Shown one piece after another: positions 6,534 through 33,388 of a DNA stretch of 64,000 nt. How positions within the stretch are numbered: the first letter of the stretch is position 1; every line of letters begins with the position of its first letter. The notes under the pieces were generated by a model. That model was not told the DNA's origin, searched no databases, and was given only the letters and a program-made list of their open reading frames with translations. Origin of the DNA: Desulfosporosinus acididurans (GTDB taxonomy: Bacteria; Bacillota; Desulfitobacteriia; Desulfitobacteriales; Desulfitobacteriaceae); the NCBI RefSeq assembly GCF_001029285.1, contig NZ_LDZY01000003.1, forward strand, positions 124,001-188,000, written 5' to 3'. Both the position numbers and the translations under genes were made by a program.

Positions 6534-7184
6534 TTATGATATTTCTGCATCTAGGCGCTTCTTTCCTGTTTTTATATAAAAAAGAGTCTCTGCCACGTTA
6601 ACAATATGGTCCCCCATTCGTTCAAGTGTCCGAGCAACAAGTATACTTATACCCAGCTGCCCCTCATCGCTTTTTGTTAGATTGCCTTTAGCCAAAGCGG
6701 TTTTTAATCTGTGATAGGCTTCATCTAACAGATCGTCCTGATCTGCCAAATCTTCAGTATACTCTTTTTCTCCTTTTAAGACATTAACTGTATACTCCAT
6801 CATTTCAAGTAAATGCTTTGCCATTTGTAAAACATCTTCGAACCAATTTCTATCCGGTTTGAGATCACTCAATTCAGTGATATCGCAAGCATAGTCTGCG
6901 ACACGTTCTAGTTCTTGGGCAATACGCTGAAAACCCAAAATCCAGCGTAAATCCTGACTTCTAAGCTGCTGCAGGCTCATGATATACAAACAACGGTTTA
7001 TTATATTGTCCCGCATTTGATCGATAATATCGTCACATTGCTCCCAGTCTTGGGTGATGGCTTTATTAGCTAAAGTCTCAATCGCCAAAGAAATTTGTTT
7101 TTGAACAGCCTCCGCCAATTCTATGGTCATCACCGGTAGATTCATTAATACTTTATCATACCCTGATGTACGAAAAGCTCCCAT
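6534..7184 (-). CDS. phoU: PhoU-like phosphate regulator
   Basis: A 216-residue, all-helical protein with two PhoU repeats; the second contains the E-R-x-x-D-H-x-x-N-V signature (ARTLERMGDHIVNVAE). PhoU proteins damp phosphate uptake through PstSCAB or Na/Pi transporters and the PhoR/PhoB system. I choose the ATG at 7184: AAGAGGTA lies 9 bases before it. A longer reading from 7253 is unlikely because it would run across a TATAAT-like box (7237-7242). The gene is in a cluster with a glycerophosphodiesterase and a Na/Pi cotransporter, which fits phosphate handling. No pst genes are in the window, so its partner is probably the Na/Pi transporter. Confidence 0.8.
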   Translation of the reverse strand: MGAFRTSGYDKVLMNLPVMTIELAEAVQKQISLAIETLANKAITQDWEQCDDIIDQMRDNIINRCLYIMSLQQLRSQDLRWILGFQRIAQELERVADYACDITELSDLKPDRNWFEDVLQMAKHLLEMMEYTVNVLKGEKEYTEDLADQDDLLDEAYHRLKTALAKGNLTKSDEGQLGISILVARTLERMGDHIVNVAETLFYIKTGKKRLDAEIS

Positions 7185-7408
7185 GAAGCAGTACCTCTTT
7201 TCATAAATATTTACATGTATTTTCAGGGGTATCCCTATTATACAAGATGCCATTTAATTTAGTTACGGCTATTTGATGTTTATCACTGCATTTATGAAAG
7301 CGGCTTCTCTTCGTCTCTCAGCCTTTTACATTTCAAGTTTTCATTAAAAACACAGATATTTATATCTCAATACCACTGAATTACACAAAAACGAAATTGC
7401 CAAATCTT

Positions 7409-8113
7409 TTACCTGTTTTTTACAAACCGTTCCGGATAATTTGTAATAATCATATCCACTCCTGACTCTAGGACATGTTCCATTTGCCACGGTTCATTCA
7501 CTGTCCATGTATTAATACCAATACCTCGGCTATGGCTTTCTGACACTAACTCCGGATTAACAAAGGCAAAATGAGGGTGAAGATTAACAGCTCCCAAATT
7601 CTGGGCATAAATCCAAGGGTTGATTGGCCCACAATCATATAGCAATCCTGTACTGATTTGAGGATGGTTCTTGATCACTTCAACGATTGTCTTATGTTCA
7701 AACGAAGAAATAATACTTTGATCGGTCACTCCGAACTTATCAAGCAATTTAACCACTTTGTCTACAATTCCCGGATATGGTATAAGCCCCGTCTTTATTT
7801 CAACATTAAGTGTAAGAGACCTGCCTTTTAACATTGCAAGTAATTCGTAGAGTGTCGGAATGGGGGCATATTTTTCAAAGGCCACTCCAAAATTAAGCTG
7901 CTTGAGTTCCTTTAAGCTAAAATCCTTAACCCAGCCAACGCCATCGCTCGTACGATCAACGCGCTCGTCGTGACAAATTACGATTTCTCCATCTCTTGAA
8001 AGCTGTACATCAAACTCAAAACCATCGACCCCATATTCAAGGCCTTTTTCAAAGGATACTAACGTATTTTCCGGAGCTGAGCCAGCCGCTCCTCGATGAC
8101 CTATAATCTTCAT
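7409..8113 (-). CDS. Glycerophosphodiester phosphodiesterase, cytoplasmic
   Basis: A 234-residue GDPD-family TIM barrel. The N-terminal HRGAAGSAPENT carries the catalytic His-Arg and Glu, and FEFDVQLSRDGEIVICHDE carries the metal-binding Glu/Asp and the second catalytic His. It hydrolyses deacylated phospholipids such as glycerophosphocholine to glycerol-3-phosphate and an alcohol. There is no signal peptide, so it resembles the cytoplasmic UgpQ type, not periplasmic GlpQ. It lies 17 bases after the Na/Pi transporter and probably shares its transcript. Its product is the substrate of the GlpABC enzymes encoded nearby. Confidence 0.9.
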   Translation of the reverse strand: MKIIGHRGAAGSAPENTLVSFEKGLEYGVDGFEFDVQLSRDGEIVICHDERVDRTSDGVGWVKDFSLKELKQLNFGVAFEKYAPIPTLYELLAMLKGRSLTLNVEIKTGLIPYPGIVDKVVKLLDKFGVTDQSIISSFEHKTIVEVIKNHPQISTGLLYDCGPINPWIYAQNLGAVNLHPHFAFVNPELVSESHSRGIGINTWTVNEPWQMEHVLESGVDMIITNYPERFVKNR

Positions 8114-8130
8114 CTTTTTATCCTTCCTTA

Positions 8131-9741
8131 TTAAACAATTCCCATGATGACCTGAGCAATATTTACTGTATGCTCATCTACAAGATACAGTAAACTAATT
8201 AAGTCTAATACAGCATAACGGAATATCTCTTTATTCCTGATCTCATTGTCTGCCTCATTTTGCGGGTTTTGAGCCAAATAATTAAACTGTAAGGTGCGCT
8301 GCAGGCGAACTGTCTCTGGATGGTCCCGTATCACTTCCCCTGCTGCCTCCGAATCCCAATGCTTTAATGCCTTGACGACAATTACAAGATGCTCGAATAC
8401 TTGTTGATATAACTCATCTAAGTGTTCCCAGCTTTCTTTTTGACCATTTAACTTTTCAAGATGCAATTTCTTAAACAATTGAATCATTGCCATGACTGCA
8501 TCTCCAATATCTTCAAATTCCTTGAGGATAAACTGGATATTCATACTTTCTTCCGCTTGTTCATCCGTTAAGCCTTTTTGAGATAAAATTGCCAAGAAGC
8601 GCATGATGTGTCGGTAATACCAATCCACATGCTCTTCAGCCTTCTCAACGTTCTCTGCTAAATTCTCATTATCCTCTAAATAAGCTTCCGGAATTCTCTG
8701 CAACATTTTAGTACAAATAAAATCTCCTAAAAGACAGATTTCCTGATTCGCCTGTTTCAAGGCAACTGCCGACACTTCCAAGGAATCCTCATCGATAGCC
8801 CTGAATTTTAATTCGCTGTCTTGGCCAGTGCGATCCTGAATCAAACGATTCAAGGCTTTAGCTATTAGGTTATTAAAGGGGAAAAATATTATAACCATGA
8901 AAACCGCAAACAGTAAATGGGCATTCGCCACCTGCCGCTGTACATCGCTCGTTGTCCATTTAATAAGATAGGAAAATTGTGTCATAAAGGGATATACTAA
9001 AACTGCTGCTATGACCTTATAAGCCGTATTCGCTATTGCCGTACGCTTAGCATCCATTTTTTGGGCCGTAATGCTGGTTAGTAACGTTGTTACCGTACCA
9101 CCGATATGTGCACCGATAACTAACGGAACGATAGCAGCCAAGCCTAACAAATGATGACCTGCCAGAGACATCATGATTGCAAAGACACCGGTGCTGCTTT
9201 GAATTACTGTCGTTAAAATCAGCCCTACTATAATTGCTAATAAAGGCCTTGATCCCAATTGGGACAAAAACGTATAGACCTGAGGAATATCGCGAAGCGG
9301 AGCCGAGGCTGTAGACATATCAGCCATCCCGACAAAGATCAAACCAAATCCGATCAGTGATTGGCCTAAATGCTTCCACTGTTTATTTCCTGCAAAATAA
9401 AGTATAAACCCAATAAATAAAGCACCTAAGGCAACATCGAGGATTTGAAAAGCGATAAGCTGAATAGAGATTGATGTTCCTACCGCAGAACCTAAGACAA
9501 TTCCCAAGGCCTGGGCAAGATTGAGCAACCCTGTATTCACAAACTCAACAACTAAAACTGTTGTCGCGGCGCTGCTTTGAAACGCAACTGTCATGATAAC
9601 GCCAAATAAAACCGCTAAAAATTTCTTCTTTGTAATGGACTGTAGGATTTGTTTCAAACGATTGGCAGCAAATTTTTGTAATGCTTCTGAAGTTGTTTGA
9701 ACCCCATACATAAAAATAGCCAATCCACCTAAGAAATACAA
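8131..9741 (-). CDS. Na/Pi cotransporter family protein with PhoU-like C-terminal domain
   Basis: A 536-residue member of the NptA/YjbB Na+/phosphate cotransporter family. The first ~310 residues carry two inverted Na/Pi repeats with the paired QSS motifs (TVAFQSSAATT and TVIQSSTGVFA). The last ~200 residues are a helical PhoU-like cytoplasmic domain. It should import, or possibly export, inorganic phosphate using sodium. The called start is TTG at 9741, about 30 bases from the ribosome site AAGGAG. An in-frame ATT at 9760-9762 lies at the proper 10-base spacing and would add seven residues, so the true start may be this rare codon. A leader hairpin (9828-9870) lies upstream. Confidence 0.88.
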   Translation of the reverse strand: MYFLGGLAIFMYGVQTTSEALQKFAANRLKQILQSITKKKFLAVLFGVIMTVAFQSSAATTVLVVEFVNTGLLNLAQALGIVLGSAVGTSISIQLIAFQILDVALGALFIGFILYFAGNKQWKHLGQSLIGFGLIFVGMADMSTASAPLRDIPQVYTFLSQLGSRPLLAIIVGLILTTVIQSSTGVFAIMMSLAGHHLLGLAAIVPLVIGAHIGGTVTTLLTSITAQKMDAKRTAIANTAYKVIAAVLVYPFMTQFSYLIKWTTSDVQRQVANAHLLFAVFMVIIFFPFNNLIAKALNRLIQDRTGQDSELKFRAIDEDSLEVSAVALKQANQEICLLGDFICTKMLQRIPEAYLEDNENLAENVEKAEEHVDWYYRHIMRFLAILSQKGLTDEQAEESMNIQFILKEFEDIGDAVMAMIQLFKKLHLEKLNGQKESWEHLDELYQQVFEHLVIVVKALKHWDSEAAGEVIRDHPETVRLQRTLQFNYLAQNPQNEADNEIRNKEIFRYAVLDLISLLYLVDEHTVNIAQVIMGIV

Positions 9742-9827: not shown

Positions 9828-9870
9828 AAAGCACAAATAAACCTGTACATACAGATAAATTTGCGGCTTT
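9828..9870 (-). promoter_or_regulatory. Leader hairpin of the Na/Pi transporter transcript (candidate antitermination site)
   Basis: On the minus strand a stem begins GAGAAAGCC and ends GCTTTTTTTATTTT. Arms 9828-9847 and 9850-9870 pair with a few mismatches. It lies in the 5' leader between a TATAAT-like box (9942-9947) and the start codon, and so looks like a leader terminator. It resembles the leader hairpins at 15062 and 17018. The rest of the 9763-10069 gap is AT-rich and shows nothing else. Confidence 0.55.
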
Positions 9871-10069
9871 CTCTATACCTCTTGCCTAGCCTATCAAATT
9901 TTGTAAAGACTCAAAAAATAAAAAAATATCTTATCATTTCCATTATAATATAAAATCACCGTTTTATAAATACATCGATTTCTTAAAACAACTGAACTAT
10001 TCCACGCGAGCCTTCTCAACTATAATGAATACTTCGTTAAACTATGAATAGAGTCCTGCAGATACCGGT

Positions 10070-11293
10070 CTATAAATCATACGCTCTTATCAGGTACCAC
10101 ACAGGATGCTCTGTTTTAACACCGGACCCATGCTGAATTTGAACCTGACACCCTCCGCATTCAGTGGTCATTGTCTGAAATCTCCCCTCCGCAACTCCTT
10201 GTTGAACGCTCTGATACAATGGTTTCCCGATTTGCATGGCTATATCATACTTTTCTTCTTTAAAACCGTAACTTCCAGATAAGCCACAGCATCCGGCGTC
10301 GAGATCTTGGATCTGCACTCCGGGAATTAAGCGCAGCAAGCGCACCGAGGGCGTACCAATTCCTTGAGTCTTTAAATGGCAAGGCGCATGATAACCTAGA
10401 GAAACCGGCACCGATTGAAAGTCTTCACGGAGCTCTCCCCGTTCGTGCAGCTCCCACAGGAACTCAAATAAGTCATACGTTTGCTGTCCGATGTATTCTG
10501 CGCCTGCGGCAGCAAGTTCAGGATATTCTTCCTTAAGTGCCAAACCACAGCTGGTACAAGAAGTAATAACAGGTAGGCCGGCCTTCAAATACGGCTCCAT
10601 AAGGGCCAGGTTCTTCTTGGCGTTTTCTCTTCCACGAGAAAAGTAACCGTTGGCTTGCAGCGGAACTCCACAGCAGTGGAAATTAGGAACAATCACTTGG
10701 TAACCATTGTGCTCTAATACTTTAACAACCGCCTGTGCCGTCTGGGCATCATTATACTTGGCAAAACAACCGGGAAAATAGACGACCTGTTTGTCTGATT
10801 GGACAAAGCTTCCTTGAGGTTTGAATTTGGTATGATACGAAGGCAGAGGGGCATGACGACTGAGACCCAAGATCTGTTCCATCAAAACACGCATTAAAGA
10901 TATACTTAGCACTGTATTTGTCATACTCGGCCAGATTGTACCCAAGCGGCCTAAATATTCCGCTCTGCCCAAGACGAGATCTCGGAATCTGTGTTGGAGT
11001 GTCTTCCCGTCACTATGCTTACTCTGTTTGGCTCTTTCCCTGGCTCCCAGGATCATTGATGTAATTCTTACACCGGAGGGACAGGTTACCTCACAGGTCT
11101 TGCAATTTGAACAATAATTAAGACATTTTATATCCATCTCGATTCCTTCAAGTCTAAATCGTTCGGCATCCGGTCCAACACTCTTCGGACCCGGGAAAAG
11201 TGGGTTCACTGCGGCTACCGGACACAGAGCTGTACAAGCGCTGCATTTAATACAAGCATCCAAATTTTTAACGTTGTCCTGTTTCAGATCCAT
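10070..11293 (-). CDS. glpC: Anaerobic glycerol-3-phosphate dehydrogenase subunit C (first copy)
   Basis: A 407-residue iron-sulfur subunit that hands electrons from GlpAB to the quinone pool at the membrane. Two 4Fe-4S motifs are visible near the N-terminus (CIKCSACTALCP and CSNCKTCEVTCP). Two CCG domains follow (FHCCGVP and CCGLSGSYGFK), as in HdrB-like proteins. The start at 11293 lies 15 bases past glpB, so the genes are co-transcribed as HAD-glpA-glpB-glpC. A second copy at 25564-26811 is roughly 60 percent identical by eye. Confidence 0.93.
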   Translation of the reverse strand: MDLKQDNVKNLDACIKCSACTALCPVAAVNPLFPGPKSVGPDAERFRLEGIEMDIKCLNYCSNCKTCEVTCPSGVRITSMILGARERAKQSKHSDGKTLQHRFRDLVLGRAEYLGRLGTIWPSMTNTVLSISLMRVLMEQILGLSRHAPLPSYHTKFKPQGSFVQSDKQVVYFPGCFAKYNDAQTAQAVVKVLEHNGYQVIVPNFHCCGVPLQANGYFSRGRENAKKNLALMEPYLKAGLPVITSCTSCGLALKEEYPELAAAGAEYIGQQTYDLFEFLWELHERGELREDFQSVPVSLGYHAPCHLKTQGIGTPSVRLLRLIPGVQIQDLDAGCCGLSGSYGFKEEKYDIAMQIGKPLYQSVQQGVAEGRFQTMTTECGGCQVQIQHGSGVKTEHPVWYLIRAYDL

Positions 11294-11308
11294 TATCCCG
11301 CATCCTTT

Positions 11309-12541
11309 CTATAAGATCTCTCCGGCTAACCATCCGGAAGCGAGTGACACCCCTCCGCCACAATGATCCAACCAGGGATCCCAATGAGCCAATAGGCGCC
11401 CAACGATCCGAACATTATCGAAGAGCGGTTCCTGATTTCCGGCAGCGAGCGGACGAAGTTCAGGATCAACCTCAACCCCCATCTTGGCATAGGGCTGTTC
11501 ACCTAAAAATTCACTGTTTGTCCATTGAGCAGGTACGTATAAAGGCAGCCCCATAACAGACTCATTTGCATCTTTAGGCCCTACCTGAATTCCTCCTCCG
11601 AAAATGCCACCCGTCGCCAGGATAAATGACTGCGCAGAAAAAGTGACATCTTTGCCTTTGCTCTTTACAATGACCGTATGACAGCGTTTCCCTTGAAACT
11701 CTACTTTCTTGACACCGGTCCCCACAAGTAATTCCCCGCCAAGTGCTTTAAACTTCTGTTTCAAGGCTTCATACAGGAACTGTCCGCTGGCAGAAGGCGG
11801 AAAAGCAGTCATTTCGACGATTGGCAAGGGAACTTCCTCGAGAACTCCTTTTAAGACATTTGAAAAACATGCTGCCAACCCAGGAAAGATAATTGCGCTC
11901 TTTTCGCCTTGCTTTTCGCCTGAAGTTGCCCCAGAGGAACTACAAGCCATTTCTTCGGTAAGTTTACCTAGGATATTTTTTAAATTGACTGCTCCCTGAT
12001 CTGAACGCCAGTATTTTGCATAATCCATTCCCGTTATTAATTTTCCAGAATTACGCCAAATGTCAAAGGCTTCAACTGCAACAGGGTATATCTCAATCTT
12101 GGCTTTGGAATAAACTCGCTCTAACTTGGCTTTGATGACCTCCGGAAAAAAGTCTTTCATTCCTTCGGGAGCTATCAGCACAATTTCCTTGGCTTTCTGC
12201 AAAACTCCCGCATTTAGCCCAGTTGGCACCAAATCGGCCTCTCTCGGGGAGCCTAAAGGAGTAAGTACCTGCTGGGAATTCTGCCATGCTCCTTGATAAT
12301 CCGGAAAAAGCCTTTGAAAATACTCCATTCCCGCTCGCACCACTGTTTCACCCATTAAAGCATACGGATGATTCTTTTCTTCCTTTAGGCGTTCAACATC
12401 TCCAAAATCCATAACCCCCGAACTATAGGTCAAGCTTCCCACGCCTTCAGAAATCACCAGCATCCGCTTGCCTTTTTCAGATGCCCGAATTCCTGCTATA
12501 AGCCCGGAGAGGCCCCCACCAATGACAATTCCATCCCACAT
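11309..12541 (-). CDS. glpB: Anaerobic glycerol-3-phosphate dehydrogenase subunit B (first copy)
   Basis: A 410-residue flavoprotein with an N-terminal dinucleotide-binding motif (GGGLSGLIAGIRA) and a C-terminal region ending in CGGGVSLASGWLAG, both as in GlpB. In the GlpABC complex it is thought to bind FMN and relay electrons from the FAD of GlpA to the iron-sulfur subunit. It is 12 bases downstream of glpA and 15 bases upstream of glpC. It is paralogous to the gene at 26850-28097. Confidence 0.92.
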   Translation of the reverse strand: MWDGIVIGGGLSGLIAGIRASEKGKRMLVISEGVGSLTYSSGVMDFGDVERLKEEKNHPYALMGETVVRAGMEYFQRLFPDYQGAWQNSQQVLTPLGSPREADLVPTGLNAGVLQKAKEIVLIAPEGMKDFFPEVIKAKLERVYSKAKIEIYPVAVEAFDIWRNSGKLITGMDYAKYWRSDQGAVNLKNILGKLTEEMACSSSGATSGEKQGEKSAIIFPGLAACFSNVLKGVLEEVPLPIVEMTAFPPSASGQFLYEALKQKFKALGGELLVGTGVKKVEFQGKRCHTVIVKSKGKDVTFSAQSFILATGGIFGGGIQVGPKDANESVMGLPLYVPAQWTNSEFLGEQPYAKMGVEVDPELRPLAAGNQEPLFDNVRIVGRLLAHWDPWLDHCGGGVSLASGWLAGEIL

Positions 12542-12553
12542 GGGAATACCTCC

Positions 12554-14170
12554 TTATTCACCTCGGTTATCGTTCAGCTGAAGGATACTTGCATAAATCG
12601 CCCGAGTTAACTCCGTTTCCCTCAGCTGTTGTCCCCAGAGAACCGGGTGGATTCCTTTCCAGCGCTGATTAATAAAGAGTGTCAATTCTTTTTCTATAGG
12701 GTCATATTTCCCCTTATCCTTCCATAACAAGGGCAGGGCACGGTAAGTACAGAAGGCTCCTTGGCAAGTTCCCATACCTAAGCGTGTCTTACGCCGTATG
12801 TCTGCTAAATGATGTGTATCTTGGTCTGAAGCTATCTTTTCAACTTCTGCAACACTGACCATTTCACATTCGCAAAGCATTTTTCCTTTGCCGGGGTTTC
12901 GTTCAATCTCTGCCAAAACACTGTCAGCATCCTCACCCAGGCGATCAATCATTTTTTCAGCAGCAGCACAGGGCAAAAGCCGCCGTGCTTTTTCATGAAC
13001 GGTATTGGGGACCTCTGACAAACATTCCTCTGCCGTGCGGCAAGGTGTGGCATTTCCTAACTTATCGGAAACCCAATCCGTAACCTTCTCAGCCATTAGC
13101 CGATAAGTGGTAAACTTTCCGCCAACGATGCTCACAATCCCACGAACTCCATCTCGGAGCTCATGGTCAAGTAAGGCGAACGTTCGGCTGACTTCCCGGC
13201 CTTCTTCCGCTGCCCCTGGAACATCACTGTCTTCCCGATGAAGAGGCCGAACTCCGGCAAAAGCCCTTATAACTCGATATTTTTCCAGCTCAGGCAACAC
13301 CTCTTCTCCTATTGCCAACAACTTCCTTGCTTCTTCCTTTAAGGGACTGTTTTCTCGGGGAGAATCAACAATTTCCGAAGTCGTTCCTAAAATCGTTATC
13401 GTTTCATGGGGAACAAAAATATCTCCATCTCCAGGCGTATGCAGCCGATTGATAACCCGTTGGAAGAGTCGTTGATTAAATGCCAATAGCGTTCCTTTGT
13501 CGCAAATGACCTCTAATGAAACCCCCGCGAAAGCAGCAATCTTAGATGCCCATGCTCCCGCCGCATTGACAACAATTTTGCAAGAGATCGTCAACATTTC
13601 TCCATTCAAAAGGTTTCGAGCGATCACACCCGTAACCCTTCGGTCCTCAAATTGAAAGCTCTCAACTTGATGGTAGGTTTTATAGTGTCCACCATAACGT
13701 TTAGCGGATTTCGCATTCGCCCAAACAAGTTTAAAACCATCAACCGCGGCATCGGGAACTTCGAATACCCTTACTATTTCCTTACTTAACAAAGGTTCTT
13801 TTTCATAGGCCTCGGATAGAGGCACTTCATGGATCGGAATTTGGGCTTGAGCACATCCTTTAATCCATTGCTCAACAAACGACGAATCATCCTCAACCGT
13901 CTGTACGAACCAGCCGCCTGTGTTGGATATGCAAGGTGCTGCAATTTTCTTGAGAATCAGATTCTCCTCAATGCATTCCGAAGCGGAAATGGGATCCTTT
14001 ACTGCGTAACGTGCCCCGCTGTGCAGTAATCCATGAAACCTAGAGCTTGTTCCATGAGCGAGATCACCCTGTTCTAAAAGTAAAGCAGTAATCCCCCGCA
14101 TGCTTAAATCCCGTAATATTCCTACCCCAGTTGCGCCGCCTCCAACGATGACAACCTCATAATCGATCAT
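12554..14170 (-). CDS. glpA: Anaerobic glycerol-3-phosphate dehydrogenase subunit A (first copy)
   Basis: A 538-residue FAD-dependent enzyme that oxidises glycerol-3-phosphate to dihydroxyacetone phosphate. The FAD motif VGGGATGVGILRD is at residues 8-20 and the family stretch HGTSSRFHGLLHSG follows. The C-terminal ~100 residues carry a BFD-like [2Fe-2S] region (CECEMV and GTCQGAFC), which separates GlpA from aerobic GlpD. The ATG at 14170 has GAGGTGGAGG before it. It follows the HAD phosphatase gene by 38 bases. The paralogue at 28094-29713 is very similar in the first 100 residues. Confidence 0.95.
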   Translation of the reverse strand: MIDYEVVIVGGGATGVGILRDLSMRGITALLLEQGDLAHGTSSRFHGLLHSGARYAVKDPISASECIEENLILKKIAAPCISNTGGWFVQTVEDDSSFVEQWIKGCAQAQIPIHEVPLSEAYEKEPLLSKEIVRVFEVPDAAVDGFKLVWANAKSAKRYGGHYKTYHQVESFQFEDRRVTGVIARNLLNGEMLTISCKIVVNAAGAWASKIAAFAGVSLEVICDKGTLLAFNQRLFQRVINRLHTPGDGDIFVPHETITILGTTSEIVDSPRENSPLKEEARKLLAIGEEVLPELEKYRVIRAFAGVRPLHREDSDVPGAAEEGREVSRTFALLDHELRDGVRGIVSIVGGKFTTYRLMAEKVTDWVSDKLGNATPCRTAEECLSEVPNTVHEKARRLLPCAAAEKMIDRLGEDADSVLAEIERNPGKGKMLCECEMVSVAEVEKIASDQDTHHLADIRRKTRLGMGTCQGAFCTYRALPLLWKDKGKYDPIEKELTLFINQRWKGIHPVLWGQQLRETELTRAIYASILQLNDNRGE

Positions 14171-14208
14171 GTGTCCTCCACCTCTTCTTTGATAGTGCCA
14201 GTGAAGCG

Positions 14209-15018
14209 TTATTCAATAATTTCATTACAAACTTTTGGCAGTTCGCGAACAGAATTTATTGTAAAATCAGGCTGCACACCGTTCGCTGGAATAACTGTCT
14301 TAGACTCTTTAAACCCAGGGTTTACCCAGATCGTTTTCATTCCGCCTTCGCTACCGAACTGTATATCAGTTGTCAGCCTGTCCCCAATTACTATGCAATG
14401 GTCTCTTGTAATTCCTAAATCCTCTATTATTTGCAGCGCTAAATCCTTGGATGGCTTACCGAAAATCATTTCAACTTTTCGCCCAGTCGTAGCCTCAAAA
14501 GCTGCGATAATTGCTCCTGCATCAGGTAAGCCATCATTCCGGTAAGGGCATACTGGATCGGGATTCGTGGCAATAAATGCAGCGCCCTTTTTCAGGGCAC
14601 GATGCCCGTTGAGCAGCTTTTCGTAATTCAATGTTGTATCAAAACTAACAAGTACAGTTTCCGCTGAGGAGTCTGCAGAAATTGCTATGCCGGCTTTTGT
14701 AAGCTGCTCAATCAGCTCCTGTTCACCAATTACATAGAGGCGGCCATACTTTTGCTTTCGCTTTTTTAGGTAGTTGGCTGTGATTACTGCAGAAGTAATT
14801 ACTTCTTCTGGAAGGGCGTATATCCCTAGTCCCTTTAATTTTTTTACATAATATTCAACACTAAAACGAGGATTATTAGTAAGAAATCTAACCTTTGCAT
14901 CTTTAGACCTTATCCATTCCAAAGCAGATGGTGCACCCTCGATAATTTCATCACCTATGTATAGTGTTCCGTCGAGATCAAATATAAAGGCATATCCGCT
15001 AAGGTCGTCGTTAAGCAT
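14209..15018 (-). CDS. HAD-IIA family sugar-phosphatase-like hydrolase
   Basis: A 269-residue HAD hydrolase of the NagD/pNPPase class. The nucleophile motif FDLDGTLY is at residues 13-20, motif II is TNNPR, and GDRLTTDI near residue 217 carries the terminal aspartates. A cap of the C2 type lies between. Family members act on small phosphate esters such as glycerol-3-phosphate or phosphoglycolate. As the first gene of a glpABC operon, a role as a glycerol-3-phosphate phosphatase or overflow valve is reasonable but inferred. The gene has a long leader with a hairpin and a consensus promoter. Confidence 0.85.
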   Translation of the reverse strand: MLNDDLSGYAFIFDLDGTLYIGDEIIEGAPSALEWIRSKDAKVRFLTNNPRFSVEYYVKKLKGLGIYALPEEVITSAVITANYLKKRKQKYGRLYVIGEQELIEQLTKAGIAISADSSAETVLVSFDTTLNYEKLLNGHRALKKGAAFIATNPDPVCPYRNDGLPDAGAIIAAFEATTGRKVEMIFGKPSKDLALQIIEDLGITRDHCIVIGDRLTTDIQFGSEGGMKTIWVNPGFKESKTVIPANGVQPDFTINSVRELPKVCNEIIE

Positions 15019-15061
15019 TATTCAACCCCCTTATTTCTAAGCTAAGACATCGTTAAAACAA

Positions 15062-15114
15062 AAAACCGCAACCTTATCTATCCTTTCAAGAAGGAAATTT
15101 AAGGCTACGGTTTT
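15062..15114 (-). promoter_or_regulatory. Leader hairpin of the HAD-glpABC operon (candidate antitermination site)
   Basis: Arms of 24 bases (15062-15085 and 15091-15114) pair with few mismatches. On the minus strand the structure starts GAGAAAACCG and ends CGGTTTTTTGTTTT. It sits between the promoter at 15245 and the first gene, so as a terminator it would block the operon unless bypassed. GlpP, encoded at 24872, is the obvious candidate antiterminator. Confidence 0.65.
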
Positions 15115-15244
15115 CTCACATCTCCAAACCATAGTTTTCCACAGCTTTTGTTTTTCTGATGACTAACGAGGCCATTTTTAATCCACGGAATTTCATTAAA
15201 AAATATGGATTACAATCATATAATCCTTCACCGAGTATTTTTGT

Positions 15245-15273
15245 AGTATACCTTAGTCTTCAATTGATGTCAA
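15245..15273 (-). promoter_or_regulatory. Promoter of the HAD-glpABC operon
   Basis: TTGACA (15268-15273) and TATACT (15245-15250) on the minus strand, exactly 17 bases apart. The transcript would have about 220 bases of leader containing the hairpin at 15062-15114. No other feature is seen in the 15019-15420 gap apart from this, the hairpin and the MFS terminator. Confidence 0.75.
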
Positions 15274-15355
15274 CGCAGATCTTTGGTTAAATCATTGCTG
15301 ATGCTGGTGTATGACCGACTTCGGCACGTAGTCCCGCTTGATGTGATGAAGCAGG

Positions 15356-15415
15356 AAAAGCTTGAACGCCTTGCAAATACCAGAGTACCGACAAACACAA
15401 GGCATTCAAGCTTTT
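15356..15415 (-). terminator. Terminator between MFS gene and HAD operon
   Basis: An 18-base inverted repeat (15356-15373 and 15398-15415, one G-U pair) immediately downstream of the MFS stop codon; T-runs flank it on both strands. Confidence 0.7.
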
Positions 15416-15420
15416 TAAAA

Positions 15421-16833
15421 TCAACGTGCTGTCGTTTGCAGTCTTATTTCCTCTCTAACTTCTTCGTCCTCTCGTTCAATGTCTTTACCAACGGGTTCCC
15501 ATTTAATAATTAATGCTGAAATCAAGCCAATTAGTGGAGCTAATGATAAAATAAGCATGGTTTTGGAAAGTCCGAAGTTCGTAAGAATAATAGGAAAAGC
15601 GAACGTACCAATCATACTGCCTAAGCGACTTGATCCCTCAACGAACCCTGAACCGAGTCCACGAAGGCTTGTTGGAAATGATAACGCCCCCATAGTCATT
15701 CCATTTGACCCTGGACCAGCCGAGTGTCCAAAGAGAAATAAAGCGACTAATAACGCTATGACCCACATCGGGACCCCACCATATGAAAATCCGATAGAAA
15801 GCATGGCGATAATAACAATTACGTAACCAAAAATTGACAGTTTGCGCGAACCCAGCTTAAATGTTAATTGAGCTCCGATAAACCCACCGAGAATCCCTGC
15901 CAAATTAATTAAAGCTGTTCCGCCAAGACTCTGCAGTTTCCCTTCACCCATTACAAAGACTGCGATAAGCGGAATGTATAATCCTACAGCATAATACTGC
16001 AAGCTTTGGGTCGTTTTTATAGCAGTTGCCAATATTGTGCGTGGCCTATATCTTTTGTTAAAGAGGATCTTTAAAGGTACTTTTTTCAGATGTTTGTCTT
16101 CGCTTACATCTGGTTGTTCCAATTTAACCTTAATTTTGTAGGTTTTTTCTAAAATCTCCGTTGCCTCTTTTAAGGGCAAATTTTTCGCTGCCCACATTGG
16201 ACTTTCCTTTAAGAACATTAACCGCAGAATCAGAACAGCCAGAGCAATGAGTCCACCCCCAGCTACACTCCATCTCCATAATGTATTTCCAGTACCTAAA
16301 CTATAAAGTCCTATTACCACTAAAGCCGAAGATGTTGTGGCAAGATACCAAAACACTTGCCAATAATTAGTGTACTTCCCTCTTGATTTGAAATTACTAA
16401 GCTCTGTAATAAAGCTAAATGCTATGGGGACATCAATTCCAATTCCAATCCCCAGAAAAAATCTGAAAAAGCCCAGAATCTGCGGACTAGGGGATAAAGC
16501 GGCGCCGAAAGAACTTATCACGAGTAATATTAAATCAATTAGAAACATCAATTTGCGTCCAAATCGATCTGTGTATAGTCCTCCTACAAGCGCTCCAATC
16601 ATCCCTCCGAAAGGCATTATCGTCATAATAACCGACAAACCAGCAGCTGTTAGGTGGAATTGCTTGATTAATTGATCGGTGGCTGTTCCTAAGATGGTCA
16701 GATCGTAGGCTTCTAGGAAGATACCCCCAAGTGCAATCAGAACAAGCATGAATGCACGTTTTTGAGTAGGATTCTGATCAATAAATCGGATAATATCATC
16801 TTTTGTTTTAACGACAAATTCACCGTTTTTCAT
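15421..16833 (-). CDS. MFS transporter, sugar-porter-like
   Basis: A 470-residue major facilitator with 12 predicted membrane helices. The loop 2-3 signature is GGLYTDRFGRK and LKESPMW follows helix 6, as in the sugar porter and related MFS groups. A cytoplasmic loop of about 60 residues lies between helices 6 and 7. The substrate is unknown. The gene is preceded by a promoter and a leader hairpin like that of the glpABC operon, so a glycerol-, glycerol-phosphate- or polyol-related substrate is a fair guess. It does not look like a standard GlpT. Confidence 0.82.
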   Translation of the reverse strand: MKNGEFVVKTKDDIIRFIDQNPTQKRAFMLVLIALGGIFLEAYDLTILGTATDQLIKQFHLTAAGLSVIMTIMPFGGMIGALVGGLYTDRFGRKLMFLIDLILLVISSFGAALSPSPQILGFFRFFLGIGIGIDVPIAFSFITELSNFKSRGKYTNYWQVFWYLATTSSALVVIGLYSLGTGNTLWRWSVAGGGLIALAVLILRLMFLKESPMWAAKNLPLKEATEILEKTYKIKVKLEQPDVSEDKHLKKVPLKILFNKRYRPRTILATAIKTTQSLQYYAVGLYIPLIAVFVMGEGKLQSLGGTALINLAGILGGFIGAQLTFKLGSRKLSIFGYVIVIIAMLSIGFSYGGVPMWVIALLVALFLFGHSAGPGSNGMTMGALSFPTSLRGLGSGFVEGSSRLGSMIGTFAFPIILTNFGLSKTMLILSLAPLIGLISALIIKWEPVGKDIEREDEEVREEIRLQTTAR

Positions 16834-17017
16834 GCTAACCCCCCTCTTTCAATGAATTAAAATTAGTTCGCCAATACTCGCTTTTTCACCCCCTGACATA
16901 TTACCGTTGCGCTTCGTAATACTCATAATTCAGCATACTTTCTTGTATCCATTTTTTTATAATTACGCTTCATTGTGAATTACGAAATGGACATTACAAG
17001 CTGGTAAAGATAAAATA

Positions 17018-17069
17018 AAAAGCCTTCTTCTAAGGCATACGTTCCCGTACGTCTTAAAAAAAGGCTTTT
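17018..17069 (-). promoter_or_regulatory. Leader hairpin of the MFS transcript (candidate antitermination site)
   Basis: AAAAGCCTT (minus strand) pairs with AAGGCTTTT (arms 17061-17069 and 17018-17026), with an inner stem around ACGTACG/CGTATG. The structure begins GAGAAAAGCC and ends GGCTTTTTATTTTATC, almost the same ends as the Na/Pi transporter leader hairpin. Confidence 0.65.
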
Positions 17070-17121
17070 CTCTTTAAACTCCAGCCAATCCATATACAGC
17101 ATTAACAGTAATTATGGCTTA

Positions 17122-17150: not shown

Positions 17151-17183
17151 GCAGACCCTGGTCTTTACCCCATAAAAACAGTT

Positions 17184-24871: not shown

Positions 24872-25447
24872 TCAGTCAAAGCTCATATCCCATAAATGGC
24901 GCAGGCTTGTAGAAACAGCATCAATTCCCTTTGCTAAAGCAGTCGTGACGTCTTCTTCAGTTCTTAATAATCCACCGCCAAGAACGGGTATCCCCAAGGA
25001 ATCTTTCATTTCCTGGATAACAAAGCGCGGGATCGTGGCCGGTAAAATTTCCACGGCATTTGGTTTGACAGCGGCAGCCATTTTTATCCCTGTTTTAACA
25101 GACTCCGAATCTAAAACAAACAGACGCTGAATCACCACCATACCTTCGTCAAGCGCATATTTAACCAAGTTTGGCTTCGTCGTGACAAGACCGCGCAGTC
25201 CCATTCTCGCCAACAAATGTATCCCCGCCTTGTCCTTTCCGGCACCTTCCAGCATGTCAAGATGGACCATCAAAACTTTATTATCACCATGAACCTTTTT
25301 CACAATGGAAGGCAGGAGATTAATGTTTGCACCTAAAAGAAAGATAGCGCTGATATTGGGATGAAGCATGGCTTCACTTAAATCCTCGACTCTCCGAATT
25401 GTTGCACCAACCCTTTTTCCCTTCATAACAGTACTTAAAAAATCCAT
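24872..25447 (-). CDS. glpP: Glycerol-3-phosphate-responsive antiterminator
   Basis: A 191-residue member of the GlpP antiterminator family. By knowledge from Bacillus, GlpP with bound glycerol-3-phosphate binds leader mRNA of glp genes and lets RNA polymerase pass a terminator. Recognisable stretches are HLDMLEGAGKD, GLVTTKPN and GGGLLRTEEDV. I choose the ATG at 25447 after GGGGGAT; an upstream reading to 25492 lacks a ribosome site. It lies 116 bases after glpC2 and may be the last gene of glpK-glpA-glpB-glpC-glpP. Candidate targets are the hairpins at 9828, 15062, 17018 and 29743. Confidence 0.9.
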   Translation of the reverse strand: MDFLSTVMKGKRVGATIRRVEDLSEAMLHPNISAIFLLGANINLLPSIVKKVHGDNKVLMVHLDMLEGAGKDKAGIHLLARMGLRGLVTTKPNLVKYALDEGMVVIQRLFVLDSESVKTGIKMAAAVKPNAVEILPATIPRFVIQEMKDSLGIPVLGGGLLRTEEDVTTALAKGIDAVSTSLRHLWDMSFD

Positions 25448-25563
25448 GTTACTATCCCCCAAGGTTTTATTAATTAACTTATTCATTATCAAATCAAGAC
25501 CCGCAGCAGTCTTTGATTATATCACAAGCCGAGGATTAAACTATACTCTTTGCTGCCCCAAGC

Positions 25564-26811
25564 TTATTCGAGTATTATCTTATATGCTTTTGCCAAAATA
25601 CGCAAAGGGTGTTTCGTAGGAATAGAAGTACCATGTTGAATTTGAACTTTACAAACCCCGCATTCCGTTAACATTTCCTGAAAGTCTCCTCGTTCAACTC
25701 CGACATTGACCGCCTCAAAAAGAGGGTTTCCAATTTTCATTGCCTTATCATACTTTTCAGCTTTAAATCCATAACTCCCGGATAAGCCGCAGCAGCCGGC
25801 ATCAAGATTGCGTATTTTAACACCGGGGATTAAGCGTAAAATGCGCAAAGCAGGAGTTCCGATCCCTTGAGCTTTTAAGTGGCATGGGAGATGGTACCCA
25901 AAACAAGCTTTGACCTCTTGAAAGTCCAGAGGCAATTCTCGCTTTTCGTGAAGCTGCCATAGAAATTCGAACAAATCATAGGTCTGAGCCCCAATCATCT
26001 GAGCCCCCGGTGCCGGCAGCTTAGGATAGTCTTCTTTCAAGGTCAGGCCGCAGCTGGTACAGGAGGTTATAACAGGCACTCCTGCCTCCAGATAGGGGCG
26101 CATTAATTCCAAGTTATAAAGTCCGTTCTTACGGGCCTTGTCGAACTGGCCATTAGCCTCTAAAGGTAAACCGCAACAATGAAAATTAGGCACAATGGTT
26201 TTATAGCCAATATGCTCTAAAACTTTGATCATGATTCGGCCTGTATCCCCTTCATTATAACGCGTATAACAACCCGGGAAGTAGATAACTTGCTTACGGA
26301 ACGCGCCTCCAGCTCTTCCGCCTTTATCCTCAATTACTTCTAAAGGTCTTCCATAAGCAGGCAAGGGACCTTTTTGACTAACCGCAAGTCCTTTGTCAAG
26401 GGCCCACCGTACTAAATTTAGTTTCAAGGCTTGATTGGCCATCCCAGGCCATAAAACCCCGAGCTTGCCAAGATATTCTGCCCGGCCCAGAACATATCCT
26501 CTTAAGCGTAATTTGAGGCTGAGCATCGTTTTATGGGGCCCTTTACGGGCTGCCCTCCGGGCTTCAAGGATCATCTCTGTAATTTTTACCCCTGAGGGAC
26601 AGGTTACTTCACAAGTTTTGCAATTTGAGCAATCATCCAAAGTTGTCTCCCCTGGAATAAACTGCCCCCTGCGGAATCGTTCCATATCCGGTCCTAAACC
26701 TTTCGGTCCCGGAAAATGAGGATTTACTTTGGCCACCGGGCACTGAGCCGTACATACATTACATTTTTGGCAAGCATCCAACCGTGCCGTCAATTCATTT
26801 CTTACATCCAT
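25564..26811 (-). CDS. glpC: Anaerobic glycerol-3-phosphate dehydrogenase subunit C (second copy)
   Basis: A 415-residue iron-sulfur subunit with 4Fe-4S motifs CQKCNVCTAQCP and CSNCKTCEVTCP and two CCG domains (FHCCGLP, CCGLSGSYGFK). The final cysteine pair reads TECGVC where copy 1 has TECGGC. I choose the ATG at 26811 with GGAGG upstream. It completes a second glpABC set directly linked to glpK and glpP. Confidence 0.93.
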   Translation of the reverse strand: MDVRNELTARLDACQKCNVCTAQCPVAKVNPHFPGPKGLGPDMERFRRGQFIPGETTLDDCSNCKTCEVTCPSGVKITEMILEARRAARKGPHKTMLSLKLRLRGYVLGRAEYLGKLGVLWPGMANQALKLNLVRWALDKGLAVSQKGPLPAYGRPLEVIEDKGGRAGGAFRKQVIYFPGCYTRYNEGDTGRIMIKVLEHIGYKTIVPNFHCCGLPLEANGQFDKARKNGLYNLELMRPYLEAGVPVITSCTSCGLTLKEDYPKLPAPGAQMIGAQTYDLFEFLWQLHEKRELPLDFQEVKACFGYHLPCHLKAQGIGTPALRILRLIPGVKIRNLDAGCCGLSGSYGFKAEKYDKAMKIGNPLFEAVNVGVERGDFQEMLTECGVCKVQIQHGTSIPTKHPLRILAKAYKIILE

Positions 26812-26849
26812 TGTCAAGGATCCTCCTTTCCGTCTCAAGTGGATAGGAC

Positions 26850-28097
26850 CTAAATAATTTCAGCCGCAGCACAGCCTGAGGTTACCGATACACCTCCGCC
26901 GCACCGTTGAGTCCAGGGATCCCAATGGGCCAGCATTCTTCCCACGACGTGGACATTATCCCAGATAACTCGTCCTTGATTAGTGTCCAAGGGACGCAGA
27001 CATTTATCCGTTTCTACGCCAATTTGGGCAAATGGCTGGGAAGCAAAGAACTGGGAAGTGCTCCATTCCTGCGGCACATATAAGGGCAAATCGAAAACGT
27101 CTTCTTGAATCAATTTTCTTTCTATGCCCACTTTAATTCCGCCGCCTAAGAGTCCGCCGGTAGCCAGAATAAACTTCTTGGCTTTTAAGTGCAAAACTTT
27201 ACCCATACTCTGGACTATTATTTCCTGACAGGACTTAGGCTGCTTAGCCGACATCGGCTTTCCATTCAGAGCAGCCGCGCGCGCTCCAATCATTAATTCA
27301 CCGCCCAAATCCGTAAATTGATGCTTTAAATATTCCGCAAAGTAACGGCCATGCGGACTTGGTAGAAAGGAACTCATTTCTATGACCGGCAAGGAATAAT
27401 CCTGCACGTAAGTTTTAGTACGCGAAGCATCAAAGTACTCGCTTACCAGACTGGGCAAAACCACAGCGATTTTTCCCGATCTGCTGCCTGCTCCTTGATG
27501 TTCTCGTTTAATCGCCTCAATTTCCTGGGCGAGAAGGTTTTGCCCCTCCTTTGATCGCCAGATTGCCGCATAATCAATACCGGATGCACTCTTGCCCATT
27601 CTTTGCCATTCTCCAAAATTTTCCGCGTGTACTCTCTTTACGTTCACTTGCCATCCGGGAAATTCGCGAACCAGGTTCGACACTACAATTTCCGGAAAGA
27701 AATCCTTCAATCCTTCAGGCACTAATAGTACGAAGCTCCCCTGTTCCTGGTGATTCGGCAGAACCATGCTGCGGGGCATAAGATCACCTTGACGGGCTGT
27801 CCCTAATACCGTTAAAGCATGCTGGGACTTGTTAGTTTCTATATATTCCGGACAAAGCTCTTGGATAAAGTGTTTGCCGCGATCAATTGCCTCAGCATCA
27901 AATAAGGAATAAGGGTGTTTCGGCAAATGGCGCAAACTCTCCAAATCTCCATAATCAAAAATCCCTGAGAAATAATAGAGTGTACCGACTCCTTCTGTCA
28001 CAATAAGCACCTTTTTGCCCCGTTGTGCGGCACGAATTCCTGCTGTCCAACCTGCTAAACCGCCCCCCACCACTATGGCATCCCACATTTTGCTCAT
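26850..28097 (-). CDS. glpB: Anaerobic glycerol-3-phosphate dehydrogenase subunit B (second copy)
   Basis: A 415-residue flavin subunit with the N-terminal VVGGGLAGWTAGIRA and the late CGGGVSVTSGCAAAE stretch. It is paralogous to 11309-12541 but more diverged than the A subunits. Its ATG overlaps the glpA stop as ATGA, which implies translational coupling. It lies 38 bases before glpC. Confidence 0.92.
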   Translation of the reverse strand: MSKMWDAIVVGGGLAGWTAGIRAAQRGKKVLIVTEGVGTLYYFSGIFDYGDLESLRHLPKHPYSLFDAEAIDRGKHFIQELCPEYIETNKSQHALTVLGTARQGDLMPRSMVLPNHQEQGSFVLLVPEGLKDFFPEIVVSNLVREFPGWQVNVKRVHAENFGEWQRMGKSASGIDYAAIWRSKEGQNLLAQEIEAIKREHQGAGSRSGKIAVVLPSLVSEYFDASRTKTYVQDYSLPVIEMSSFLPSPHGRYFAEYLKHQFTDLGGELMIGARAAALNGKPMSAKQPKSCQEIIVQSMGKVLHLKAKKFILATGGLLGGGIKVGIERKLIQEDVFDLPLYVPQEWSTSQFFASQPFAQIGVETDKCLRPLDTNQGRVIWDNVHVVGRMLAHWDPWTQRCGGGVSVTSGCAAAEII

Positions 28098-29713
28098 TCC
28101 TCACTTTCAACTGCCTTAAAATCCAAAACGTTCAAATACAAAGCACGTGCCAATTCGCTCTCACGCAGCTGATCTCCCCAAAGCACCGGGGTTATCCCCC
28201 GCCAGCGTTCGCTTATTAAAATCCGATATTCTTTCAAGGTTCTCTCCCAACTGCCAAAGGCATCTTTGAGCATAGGCGTCGAGCGATAGGTACAATAGGT
28301 TCCTTGACAGGTCCCCATTCCCAGCCTTGTCTTACGGCGCAGATCATCAAGGGAATGAACCGCAGGATCTTGGAGTGCATGGAGAACTTCGGCCTGTGTG
28401 ACCATTTCACATTCACAGATAAATTGTCCAAGTTCAGGCTGTTTTTCGATGACTGCTATGACAGAAGCGGCTTCTTCGTTCAAACGTTCCATCATCTTAT
28501 CCGCGGCTGCAGCTCCCAGCAGTTGGCGCGCCTTATTCCAGACGTCTGCCGGGAGTTCATGATGCAAAGGCTCCTCAGCTGTGCGGCAAGCGGTTGTAAC
28601 ATTTAATCTGGCGGCCGCCCAATCCGTCACTTTTTCAGCCATTAAGCGATAGGTCGTTAATTTACCGCCCACTATACTTACCAGCCCGTGAACTCCGTCT
28701 CTTTTTTCATGGTCAATGAGAGCAAAGTTGCGGCTTACCCCTCGTCCTTCATGCTCTGAGGCATCTTCACTTTCATACAAGGGACGAATGCCTGCAAAAG
28801 CACGCAGAACACGGTGCTGTTCAATTCCTTCCGCAAGATCTTTGCCCATTTCCAACAAATATGAAACATCTTGTTCTCTGACCTGATTGTCATCCGGCAG
28901 ATCAACCATCTGTGAGGTCGTCCCTAAGATCGTTACGGTTTCATGAGGCACAAAGATATCCCCATCACCCGGAGTTCGCAAACGATTAATTACTCGATTG
29001 AACATCCGTTGATTAAACACTAGGAGTGAACCTTTATTTTTCAGCATATGCACATCAAACCCGGACATAGCAGCAATCTCAGCCGACCAAGGACCCGCAG
29101 CATTGACGACAATTTTACTGCGGACTTGAATCATTTCCCCGGTAATGAGATCCTCGGCGTACACACCTTTGATGTCTTTATTCTCTAACCACAGGGATTT
29201 TACTTTGCAATACGTACGATACGATCCTCCGTATTTTTCTGCTGATTTCACATTGGCCCATAACAATTTAAAACCGTCGACCGTAGCATCCGGAACTTCA
29301 AAAACCCGTGCTGTTTGTCGTGATAATAAAGGTTCGAGGCGAAAGGCCTCTTCAAGGGGAACCTCCTTCACAGGTATTCCAGCTTGATCGCATCCTTGAA
29401 GCCATAACTGTAAATAGCCCGGATCATCCCCTTTTAAATATACAAACCAGCCGAAGGTATCTTCGATACAATGAGCCGCAATGTGTTTCACAATCTTATT
29501 TTCCTCGATACACTCTTGGGCTGCTTTAGCATCTTTAACTGCATAGCGCGCACCGCTGTGCAAAAGTCCATGAAAGCGTGAACTTGTCCCATGTGCCAGA
29601 TCTCCTTGTTCTAACAAAAGCGCCGGGATACCACGCATACTCAAGTCTCTTAATATTCCAACCCCTGTCGCTCCTCCGCCGATTACCACAACTTGGGTCT
29701 CAATCTCACACAT
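28094..29713 (-). CDS. glpA: Anaerobic glycerol-3-phosphate dehydrogenase subunit A (second copy)
   Basis: A 539-residue FAD dehydrogenase with VIGGGATGVGILRD near the N-terminus and the BFD-like cysteines (CECEMV, GTCQGTYC) near the C-terminus. I choose the ATG at 29713, after AAGGAGGAG. The frame is open to 29800, but that extension is encoded by a hairpin (29743-29785) and has no family match, so it is leader and not protein. The gene follows glpK by 126 bases. Confidence 0.95.
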   Translation of the reverse strand: MCEIETQVVVIGGGATGVGILRDLSMRGIPALLLEQGDLAHGTSSRFHGLLHSGARYAVKDAKAAQECIEENKIVKHIAAHCIEDTFGWFVYLKGDDPGYLQLWLQGCDQAGIPVKEVPLEEAFRLEPLLSRQTARVFEVPDATVDGFKLLWANVKSAEKYGGSYRTYCKVKSLWLENKDIKGVYAEDLITGEMIQVRSKIVVNAAGPWSAEIAAMSGFDVHMLKNKGSLLVFNQRMFNRVINRLRTPGDGDIFVPHETVTILGTTSQMVDLPDDNQVREQDVSYLLEMGKDLAEGIEQHRVLRAFAGIRPLYESEDASEHEGRGVSRNFALIDHEKRDGVHGLVSIVGGKLTTYRLMAEKVTDWAAARLNVTTACRTAEEPLHHELPADVWNKARQLLGAAAADKMMERLNEEAASVIAVIEKQPELGQFICECEMVTQAEVLHALQDPAVHSLDDLRRKTRLGMGTCQGTYCTYRSTPMLKDAFGSWERTLKEYRILISERWRGITPVLWGDQLRESELARALYLNVLDFKAVESEE

Positions 29714-29742
29714 CCATAGCTCCTCCTTGCCAGAAATTAAGA

Positions 29743-29785
29743 GCCACCAAAGAAACCGTTGTTTCGCAATGGCCTCTTTAGTGGC
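29743..29785 (-). promoter_or_regulatory. Intercistronic hairpin between glpK and glpA
   Basis: GCCACTAAAGA pairs with TCTTTGGTGGC around a 21-base loop on the minus strand and is followed by TCTTAATTT. It may be an attenuator or partial terminator setting the GlpK:GlpA ratio, and could be a GlpP target. The T-run is weak. Confidence 0.5.
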
Positions 29786-29839
29786 TTCACTTATTCTCAA
29801 GCCGCCTTATCTATTCTTATCGGAGTTTACAAGCGCAGC

Positions 29840-31354
<1,515 letters not shown>

Positions 31355-33056: not shown

Positions 33057-33340
33057 TTGGGATGACCTCCGTTATTTTGATTGGATTCTGTTGGCCAACA
33101 GTCCTTTCAAATTGTAACGTGAGGTCTTCTTTTTGACAAAGCTCATTTTTTCCTACTACAGGAATGCTCCTCTTCTAATTATAGTTAAGTTTTTATGAGT
33201 TTCTAGCCAAAGAATACGATTTTCCTTTTCCAAGTATCGGGAATATTATGAAAGCAATTCTAGGCAAGGTACGTATGAACAGAGAATTTGGGCAAAATCC
33301 CTAGTTATTGAAGTATTCTTAACCTATTAGAAAAACAAAA

Positions 33341-33388
33341 AGCCCAATTATACTAGTCATTCATTAAAACAACTAATATAATTCGGCT
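33341..33388 (-). terminator. Hairpin between rpoN and IS110 element
   Basis: Arms AGCCCAATTATACTAGT (33341-33357) and its near complement (33372-33388) with two mismatches, followed by TTTTTG on the minus strand. It could end the rpoN transcript. The rest of the 33131-33540 stretch is AT-rich and shows no gene. Confidence 0.6.

Follow-up and report, generated by a model that had tools for sequence, protein, structure and literature searches.

Antitermination by GlpP is known from Bacillus subtilis, where the protein activates five genes by disrupting a terminator downstream of the promoter, and where a 'GlpP binding site' is mentioned for three promoters (available sections of PMC9604022). 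The literature searched says little about the way in which GlpP recognises RNA. This study focused on a stretch of 64,000 nucleotides (nt) of the Desulfosporosinus acididurans genome (contig NZ_LDZY01000003.1, positions 124,001 to 188,000; hereafter the window), which carries a gene for GlpP and six copies of one RNA hairpin whose loop contains a pair of GAGA-like repeats. The leaders concerned are very probably protein-dependent antitermination leaders read by GlpP. As far as the accessible text of PMC9604022 and PMC7430163 goes, the system resembles B. subtilis GlpP antitermination (glpD, glpFK, glpTQ) in having a PF04309 regulator, the same pathway, a leader terminator and glycerol-3-phosphate (G3P) as the signal, but the predicted targets are different, namely anaerobic glpABC, a HAD phosphatase, an MFS transporter and a cluster for a sodium/phosphate (Na/Pi) symporter, a glycerophosphodiesterase (gdpd) and a PhoU-like protein.

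All six copies lie on the minus strand, as do the terminators and genes given below with coordinates. The plan of the hairpin is GGCU–RGAG..RGAGA–AGCC, the two RGAG(A) repeats standing in a loop that is canonically 13 nt long (RGAG-N4-RGAGA), and in five of the six copies the 3' strand of this antiterminator is part of the 5' arm of an intrinsic terminator, so that the two hairpins are mutually exclusive. An earlier reading of the window without database searches (the sequence-only reading) had noticed three terminator-like hairpins, before the Na/Pi gene, the HAD-glpABC genes and the MFS gene, with 5' arms that open with GAGAAA and 3' arms that run into T-runs. All three exist on the minus strand with these features (fold z −3.3 to −5.4), and the Na/Pi and MFS hairpins do end almost identically (both GCTTTTT..ATTTTATC). 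GAGAAA is the second of the two loop repeats, the 3' strand of the upstream hairpin being the 5' arm of the terminator. To these can be added hairpins at about 33335–33393 and 29741–29788 and, preceding each terminator, its antiterminator half. Two covariance models were used in the searches: R1, of the 23-nt hairpin, has window sequences in its seed, and R2 was built without window sequence, though Desulfosporosinus relatives contributed four glpF elements and a single glpP element to its seed.

The HAD-glpA2B2C2 leader holds the antiterminator GGUUU-GGAGAUGUGAGA-AAACC at 15109..15130 (R1 23.9 bits, in seed; R2 17.6 bits, the top window match) and, by fold and T-run, the overlapping intrinsic terminator at 15062..15117. 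Before the MFS gene, GGCU-GGAGUUUAAAGAGAAA-AGCC at 17063..17086 (R1 21.8 bits, in seed) overlaps a terminator at 17018..17072, also recognised by fold and T-run. The copy in the glpK-glpA1 gap, GGCU-UGAGAAUAAGUGA-AGCC at 29781..29803, is outside the R1 seed and is the third-best R1 match of the whole genome; a counterpart is present in eight loci of relatives, and the overlapping terminator-like hairpin, seen by fold at 29741..29788, has a weak T-run. The copy of the former glpF-glpK leader, at 33384..33405, has a weaker GGC/GCC stem, aligns with a relative's glpF leader and overlaps a terminator at 33335..33393 (fold z −5.89). In the Na/Pi-gdpd leader the antiterminator (9865..9891) is degenerate, with a GGC/GCC stem and the repeats AGAG and AGAGAA (R1 13.4 bits, R2 11.0 bits), and overlaps a terminator recognised by fold at 9828..9873; intact counterparts of the antiterminator stand before the Na/Pi gene in relatives. 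The sixth copy, an antiterminator-like hairpin between gdpd and phoU (GGCU-GAGAGACGAAGAGA-AGCC, 7301..7323), is the best R1 match of the genome (29.9 bits, in seed; R2 17.4 bits).

The MFS, HAD-glpABC and Na/Pi leaders fold to −33.0, −34.3 and −21.7 kcal/mol (z −5.05, −5.38 and −3.32), and for none of them were any of 200 dinucleotide shuffles as good. Nascent leaders ending at the antiterminator reach only −2.8 to −7.0 kcal/mol and full leaders form terminators of −17 to −33 kcal/mol, the gdpd-phoU copy excepted (−9.5), which makes the terminator the default state, as a protein-dependent antiterminator would need. Folds and T-runs place the terminator in the leader in five of the six copies; the promoters that define these leaders are consensus matches only, 23 being found against 17.5 expected. 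The sequence-only reading had put promoters 130–170 bases upstream of the hairpin in two leaders, and the matches are indeed there, TTGACA-17-TATACT ending at 15245 before HAD and TTGACA-17-TAATAT ending at 17122 before MFS, but the distances to GAGAAA are 128 nt and 50 nt. Its statement that the Na/Pi leader has only a −10-like box was mistaken: TTTATA-17-TATAAT, a match at 10 of 12 positions, ends at 9942, 69 nt before GAGAAA. GAGAA alone is not enriched in the window (171 against 180 expected), nor does a simple terminator scan of 9000–18000 exceed shuffles (8 found, 8.6 expected); of the three hairpins it lists the MFS one only.

It is proposed that, without G3P, the nascent leader would fold into the strong intrinsic terminator and transcription would stop before the genes. 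With G3P, the signal known from Bacillus, GlpP would bind the upstream hairpin with its two purine repeats and stabilise it, gripping both RGAG repeats and so keeping the upper hairpin closed; the 3' strand of that hairpin would then no longer be free to serve as the terminator's 5' arm, so that termination would fail and transcription would go on.

The hairpin is conserved and covaries. Because MAFFT misaligned the hairpins when given whole elements, short anchored alignments were used. One of these, free of gaps, brings together 14 elements, 11 of them distinct, that come from Desulfosporosinus, other Bacillota and Bacilli, and in it each of the five stem pairs changes on both sides. Paired cells amount to 94.5% against 53.0% in shuffles, two-sided cells to 22 against 6.5, and the covariation score to 1.16 against 0.29, values reached by none of 500 shuffles in each case, and the signal is lost on sliding the alignment. 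Two measures are weak, pairs with two-sided change (5 against 3.7; 117 of 500 shuffles) and further pair types (13 against 9.3; 15 of 500). The elements of this alignment (A7) were picked with pairing in view, and a pairing-blind check was provided by searching for the two-repeat loop with pairing ignored: the 7,500 bases that directly follow 30 glpP genes from across the phylum hold 22 matches (16 loci, overlapping matches being counted apart), against 36 in 201,330 other strand-bases, and stems of at least five pairs flank 16 of the 22 but only 6 of the 36.

With its filters off, R1 finds in the window exactly the six elements as its six best matches, the next scoring 11.3 bits. At an expectation value (E) of ≤10 it has five matches in the whole genome, four of them in the window, including the copy outside the seed at 29781–29803. 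R2 ranks the HAD, gdpd-phoU and glpK-glpA copies first to third in the window. These own-genome searches scored 150 of 1,406 and 150 of 1,539 candidates, and further members are possible. Other own-genome matches were rejected: those at C2:136600 (R1) and at C3:220510, C1:136946 and C7:10537 (R2) lie in open frames and have no glp-type protein in their 3-kb loci, and the R2 matches at C13:64374, C1:347335 and C5:191773 are not in open frames and have neither a glp-type protein in the 3-kb locus nor an overlapping terminator by eye. A weak antiterminator-like stretch between glpP and pgk (24668–24695, R2 14.3 bits) is without counterpart in the glpP-pgk gap of the relatives searched and is not claimed. 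Rfam has no match at gathering score at the glp leaders of the window, and at E≤1 in eight element-bearing loci a single sub-threshold microRNA-model match (24.5 bits, gathering 49.5; L100) is all that overlaps an element region.

Within the genus, the element at glpF, glpK and glpA goes with glp-linked GlpP. Among 24 genomes, of which 14 have a glp-linked GlpP, nine lack PF04309 and one (G017) has a distant paralogue, R1 at E≤2 finds it at glpF, glpK-glpA or glpP-glpA in 14 of 14 with such a GlpP and in none of the nine without, weaker matches having been checked too; this gives p = 1.2e-6 if the draws were independent, the genomes being related. The sequence-only reading called for a conserved sequence 5' of the hairpins; there is one, it shows the covariation of an RNA hairpin, and it follows the glp-linked GlpP genes. 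The D. acididurans GlpP (24872..25492; PF04309 178.2 bits, cut-off 27) is the only PF04309 protein found in its genome, and solved structures of relatives are 3kts and 1vkf. All eight relatives found via GlpP are Desulfosporosinus and have their gene neighbourhood in common with the window. In one of the relatives a GGUUA..UAACC element lies just upstream of glpP (L023 9770–9794, which is L008 2276–2300 of the same genome), which suggests that GlpP may control its own gene there. A distant third GlpP paralogue (29–31% identical) occurs in G017, G022 and G012 (L003, L007, L018), with no glp genes within 1.5 kb on each side. Weak matches in relatives (L167–L179) were rejected, as tblastn found no glp gene by them, the sole match being eno in L177.

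Beyond the genus, R1 at E≤2 has 12 matches in 30 phylum-wide glpP loci, all 12 on the glpP strand and at most some 150 nt downstream of the glpP domain; the stems of these elements differ, examples being GACU/AGUC and GGUUC/GGACC. An antiterminator with an overlapping terminator is found within 250 nt downstream of glpP in 16 of the 30 loci (19 matches against 0.35 expected from shuffles), by a descriptor written after the R1 matches had been seen in 12 of the same loci. Among Bacilli, the glpF and glpD leaders of Cytobacillus spongiae have the same architecture and share the element; R2 also matches before glpD-type genes in G171 and G283. In an R2 comparison of 40 GlpP-bearing with 40 GlpP-less genomes, matches at E≤0.005, a cut chosen after the list was seen, occurred in 8 against 0, at E≤0.05 in 10 against 3 and at E≤0.3 in 16 against 9, several of the GlpP-bearing genomes having glpP loci already examined, the seven phylum-level R2 seed genomes being excluded, and 21 of the 40 GlpP-less genomes being classed so by absence from among the matches listed. 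Loci were fetched from R2 matches (30 loci; 38 matches listed), and glp genes adjoin the match in 14 of 21 from GlpP-bearing and none of nine from GlpP-less genomes, 11 of the 14 lying directly after glpK. In other Bacillota, the genes beside which R2 places the motif include glpP, glpF and glpD/A. Since the element accompanies GlpP in many Bacillota, it is very probably GlpP's target. One locus, L138 (G155:C1:1601447-1601469), combines a strong R2 match and an overlapping terminator with no recognised glp gene nearby, and may represent a further regulon member.

A number of observations weigh against GlpP as the reader of these leaders. In the window, three of the four R1 matches at E≤10 were in the R1 seed; R2 misses the MFS copy (not listed at E≤10), places the Na/Pi and old glpF-leader copies only 10th and 13th, and has its best own-genome match elsewhere, in an intergenic site at G000:C13:64374-64396 (L130 1501–1523; 24.3 bits) with no glp gene recognised in the 3-kb locus. 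The gdpd-phoU copy has no terminator and with its 3' flank folds only to −9.5 kcal/mol, and in the nascent MFS and HAD leaders the antiterminator alone is not the minimum-energy fold. Genome G034 (90% complete) has a strong element before glpA (28.1 bits) and a weak one before glpK (14.9) with no PF04309 match; 14 of the 30 phylum-level glpP loci are without a recognisable element beside glpP, and 30 of the 40 GlpP-bearing genomes have no R2 match at E≤0.05, under stricter filters. The Na/Pi leader is the most awkward case. The Na/Pi gene occurs in 12 of 29 genus genomes at E≤1e-60, and its leader element is kept in the GlpP-bearing G001, G003, G041, G010 (at a contig end) and, degenerate, in D. 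acididurans; it also persists in the GlpP-less G006, G007 and G011, in the incomplete G013 (67%) and in G017, which has only the distant GlpP paralogue (29% identical). The GlpP-bearing G019, like G005, keeps the Na/Pi terminator with the GGCU half gone, and in the GlpP-bearing G002 the Na/Pi gene comes after phoU, without such a leader.

The likeliest of the other explanations is that the element is real but that some copies, above all the one before Na/Pi, are read by a regulator other than GlpP, such as a PhoU-like or other RNA-binding protein: the copies in G006, G007 and G011 are intact, and PhoU domains are encoded by both the Na/Pi and the phoU genes. It is nevertheless unlikely. The Na/Pi leaders of these three genomes are near-identical, so that they may be one lineage, and GlpP appears to have been lost from G007 and G011, where glpP2 is absent from the gap before glpA2, its place in relatives. 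G011 retains a stretch like the first codons of glpP2 (alignment score 79 against a shuffled maximum of 33), and the glpA2 antiterminator of both has lost its 5' half while the terminator hairpin remains. A recent loss of glpP2 can explain the persistence of the Na/Pi element, which softens the Na/Pi objection but does not remove it. The scar left before glpA2 in these two genomes (L079 3830–4047; L080 about 3327–3560) amounts to a natural glpP deletion.

Terminators commonly have A-rich 5' flanks, every copy is intergenic, and the Na/Pi hairpin stands 200 nt after glpC2, all as would be expected if the hairpins were ordinary terminators of the upstream genes and GAGAAA an A-rich tract pairing with the U-run; but a second, covarying hairpin precedes them, ssrA upstream of the MFS gene has its own terminator-like hairpin (17206–17184), and the Na/Pi hairpin belongs with the Na/Pi gene and not with glpC2, because in relatives it is found between rpoN and Na/Pi. 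Such an origin is extremely unlikely. It is also very unlikely that the main effect of GlpP in these leaders is on the stability or translation of the mRNA and not on termination, because the terminator overlap is seen in five of six window copies and the same overlap in 16 of 30 glpP loci; in favour of that idea are the terminator-less gdpd-phoU copy and a second role of GlpP in the stability of B. subtilis glpD mRNA, described in the available portions of PMC7430163 and PMC7509114.

On the reading that GlpP is the antiterminator, the predicted regulon is well supported for HAD-glpA2B2C2 and glpK-glpA1B1C1-glpP and fairly supported for the MFS gene, a likely member (its copy is part of the R1 seed and escapes R2); Na/Pi-gdpd-phoU is a possible member with a weaker case. 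The sequence-only reading had assigned to GlpP control of all three leaders it saw, and so holds up well for HAD-glpABC, fairly for MFS and less for Na/Pi, where the copy is degenerate. Phosphate import, which it linked to G3P, is only part of that cluster, the Na/Pi gene being followed by gdpd and phoU. If the regulon is as proposed, G3P oxidation, the HAD phosphatase, glycerophosphodiester breakdown and phosphate uptake would be tied to one signal.

The old glpF-glpK leader has outlived its first gene. Except for its 3' end, which with the stretch before glpK survives at 33158..33223 (local alignment to L022, score 95 against a shuffled maximum of 41), glpF is gone, and a genome search at E≤0.01 gave no MIP-family/GlpF gene (PF00230). 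An IS110-like transposase gene (31773..33056; an open reading frame, family named by inspection) lies between the leader with its remnant and glpK, so that the old leader is parted from glpK. Among seven named loci of relatives with a whole glpK, six have the counterpart of the 33.3–33.4 kb hairpin before glpF, no such element being seen in the stretch before glpF in L025. Most of these glpF leaders contain the conserved stretch GGCUAGAGUAUUAGAGAAGCC, in which the partner of GGCU is AGCC, the same four bases with which the terminator begins. We lean, by a small margin, towards a broader proposal in which the module is a Bacillota-wide RNA recognition hairpin with a free stem, where the 13-nt loop RGAG-N4-RGAGA alone would be specific for GlpP, perhaps with one repeat per GlpP subunit. 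With nothing but the loop fixed, a stem could match any terminator, and the switch could thereby have moved to new genes; the MFS transporter may replace the lost glpF uptake route.

In its working, the proposed switch is like that of the LicT/SacT/SacY/GlcT antiterminators, where a protein-stabilised hairpin, the ribonucleic antiterminator (RAT), overlaps and blocks a terminator. RAT elements have bulges, in place of which there is here a loop with two RGAG repeats, and the protein family is another one. No Rfam RAT (LicT/SacT) match was found at the leaders, no search aimed at the RAT consensus having been made. TRAP reads repeated NAG/GAG triplets. Contacts of the LicT antiterminator are described in the accessible part of PMC7430163, as is the recognition by HutP of repeated purine triplets, which is alike. 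HutP and TRAP differ in that only two repeats occur here, in a single hairpin loop, and the contact of GlpP with them is inferred. The T-box before trpS in the same window (2243–2485; 137 bits) is likewise a leader attenuator, differing in that Rfam matches it (RF00230) and has no family at the glp leaders.

GlpP antitermination is thus already known, and what appears to be newly defined is the recognition element. The covarying motif is absent from Rfam 15, and no description of it was met in the literature searched, a body of texts in part partial and with most of the older GlpP papers outside it, so that the hairpin may be noted for B. subtilis; the main text of a survey of premature terminators mentions neither glp genes nor glycerol. 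The two-repeat-loop element offers a concrete target for binding studies, a means of mapping the regulon by sequence and a candidate Rfam family.

The window contains two sets of genes for anaerobic G3P dehydrogenase, glpABC-1 with glpK and glpP, and glpABC-2 behind the HAD-IIA phosphatase gene, with the MFS gene and the Na/Pi-gdpd-phoU cluster placed between or beside them. In the first set (25564..31336), glpK was identified by model and glpA1, glpB1 and glpC1 by similarity to the second glpABC set in loci of relatives; glpA2, glpB2 and glpC2 (10070..14170) match TIGR03377, TIGR03378 and TIGR03379 above cut-off. The Na/Pi symporter, gdpd and PhoU-like genes (6534..9741) are recognised by PF02690, PF03009 and PF01895, and the MFS transporter (15421..16833) by PF00083/PF07690, with no NCBIfam model at cut-off among the matches listed (25 of 31). 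The HAD-IIA family phosphatase gene (14209..15018; TIGR01460 142 bits, cut-off 100; PF13344 and others) is the first behind the HAD leader and at E≤1e-40 is found in one of 29 genus genomes, its own; the MFS gene is found in two of 29 at E≤1e-80, the second copy at 43% identity. Close relatives of both genes are thus lacking in the genus, among whose members these two leaders are peculiar to this strain. Further afield, and in keeping with a HAD gene in the regulon proposed here, a HAD hydrolase gene lies one or two genes after glpP in Planococcus (L127 5887–8909) and on a Peptoclostridium plasmid (L129 6034–7650).

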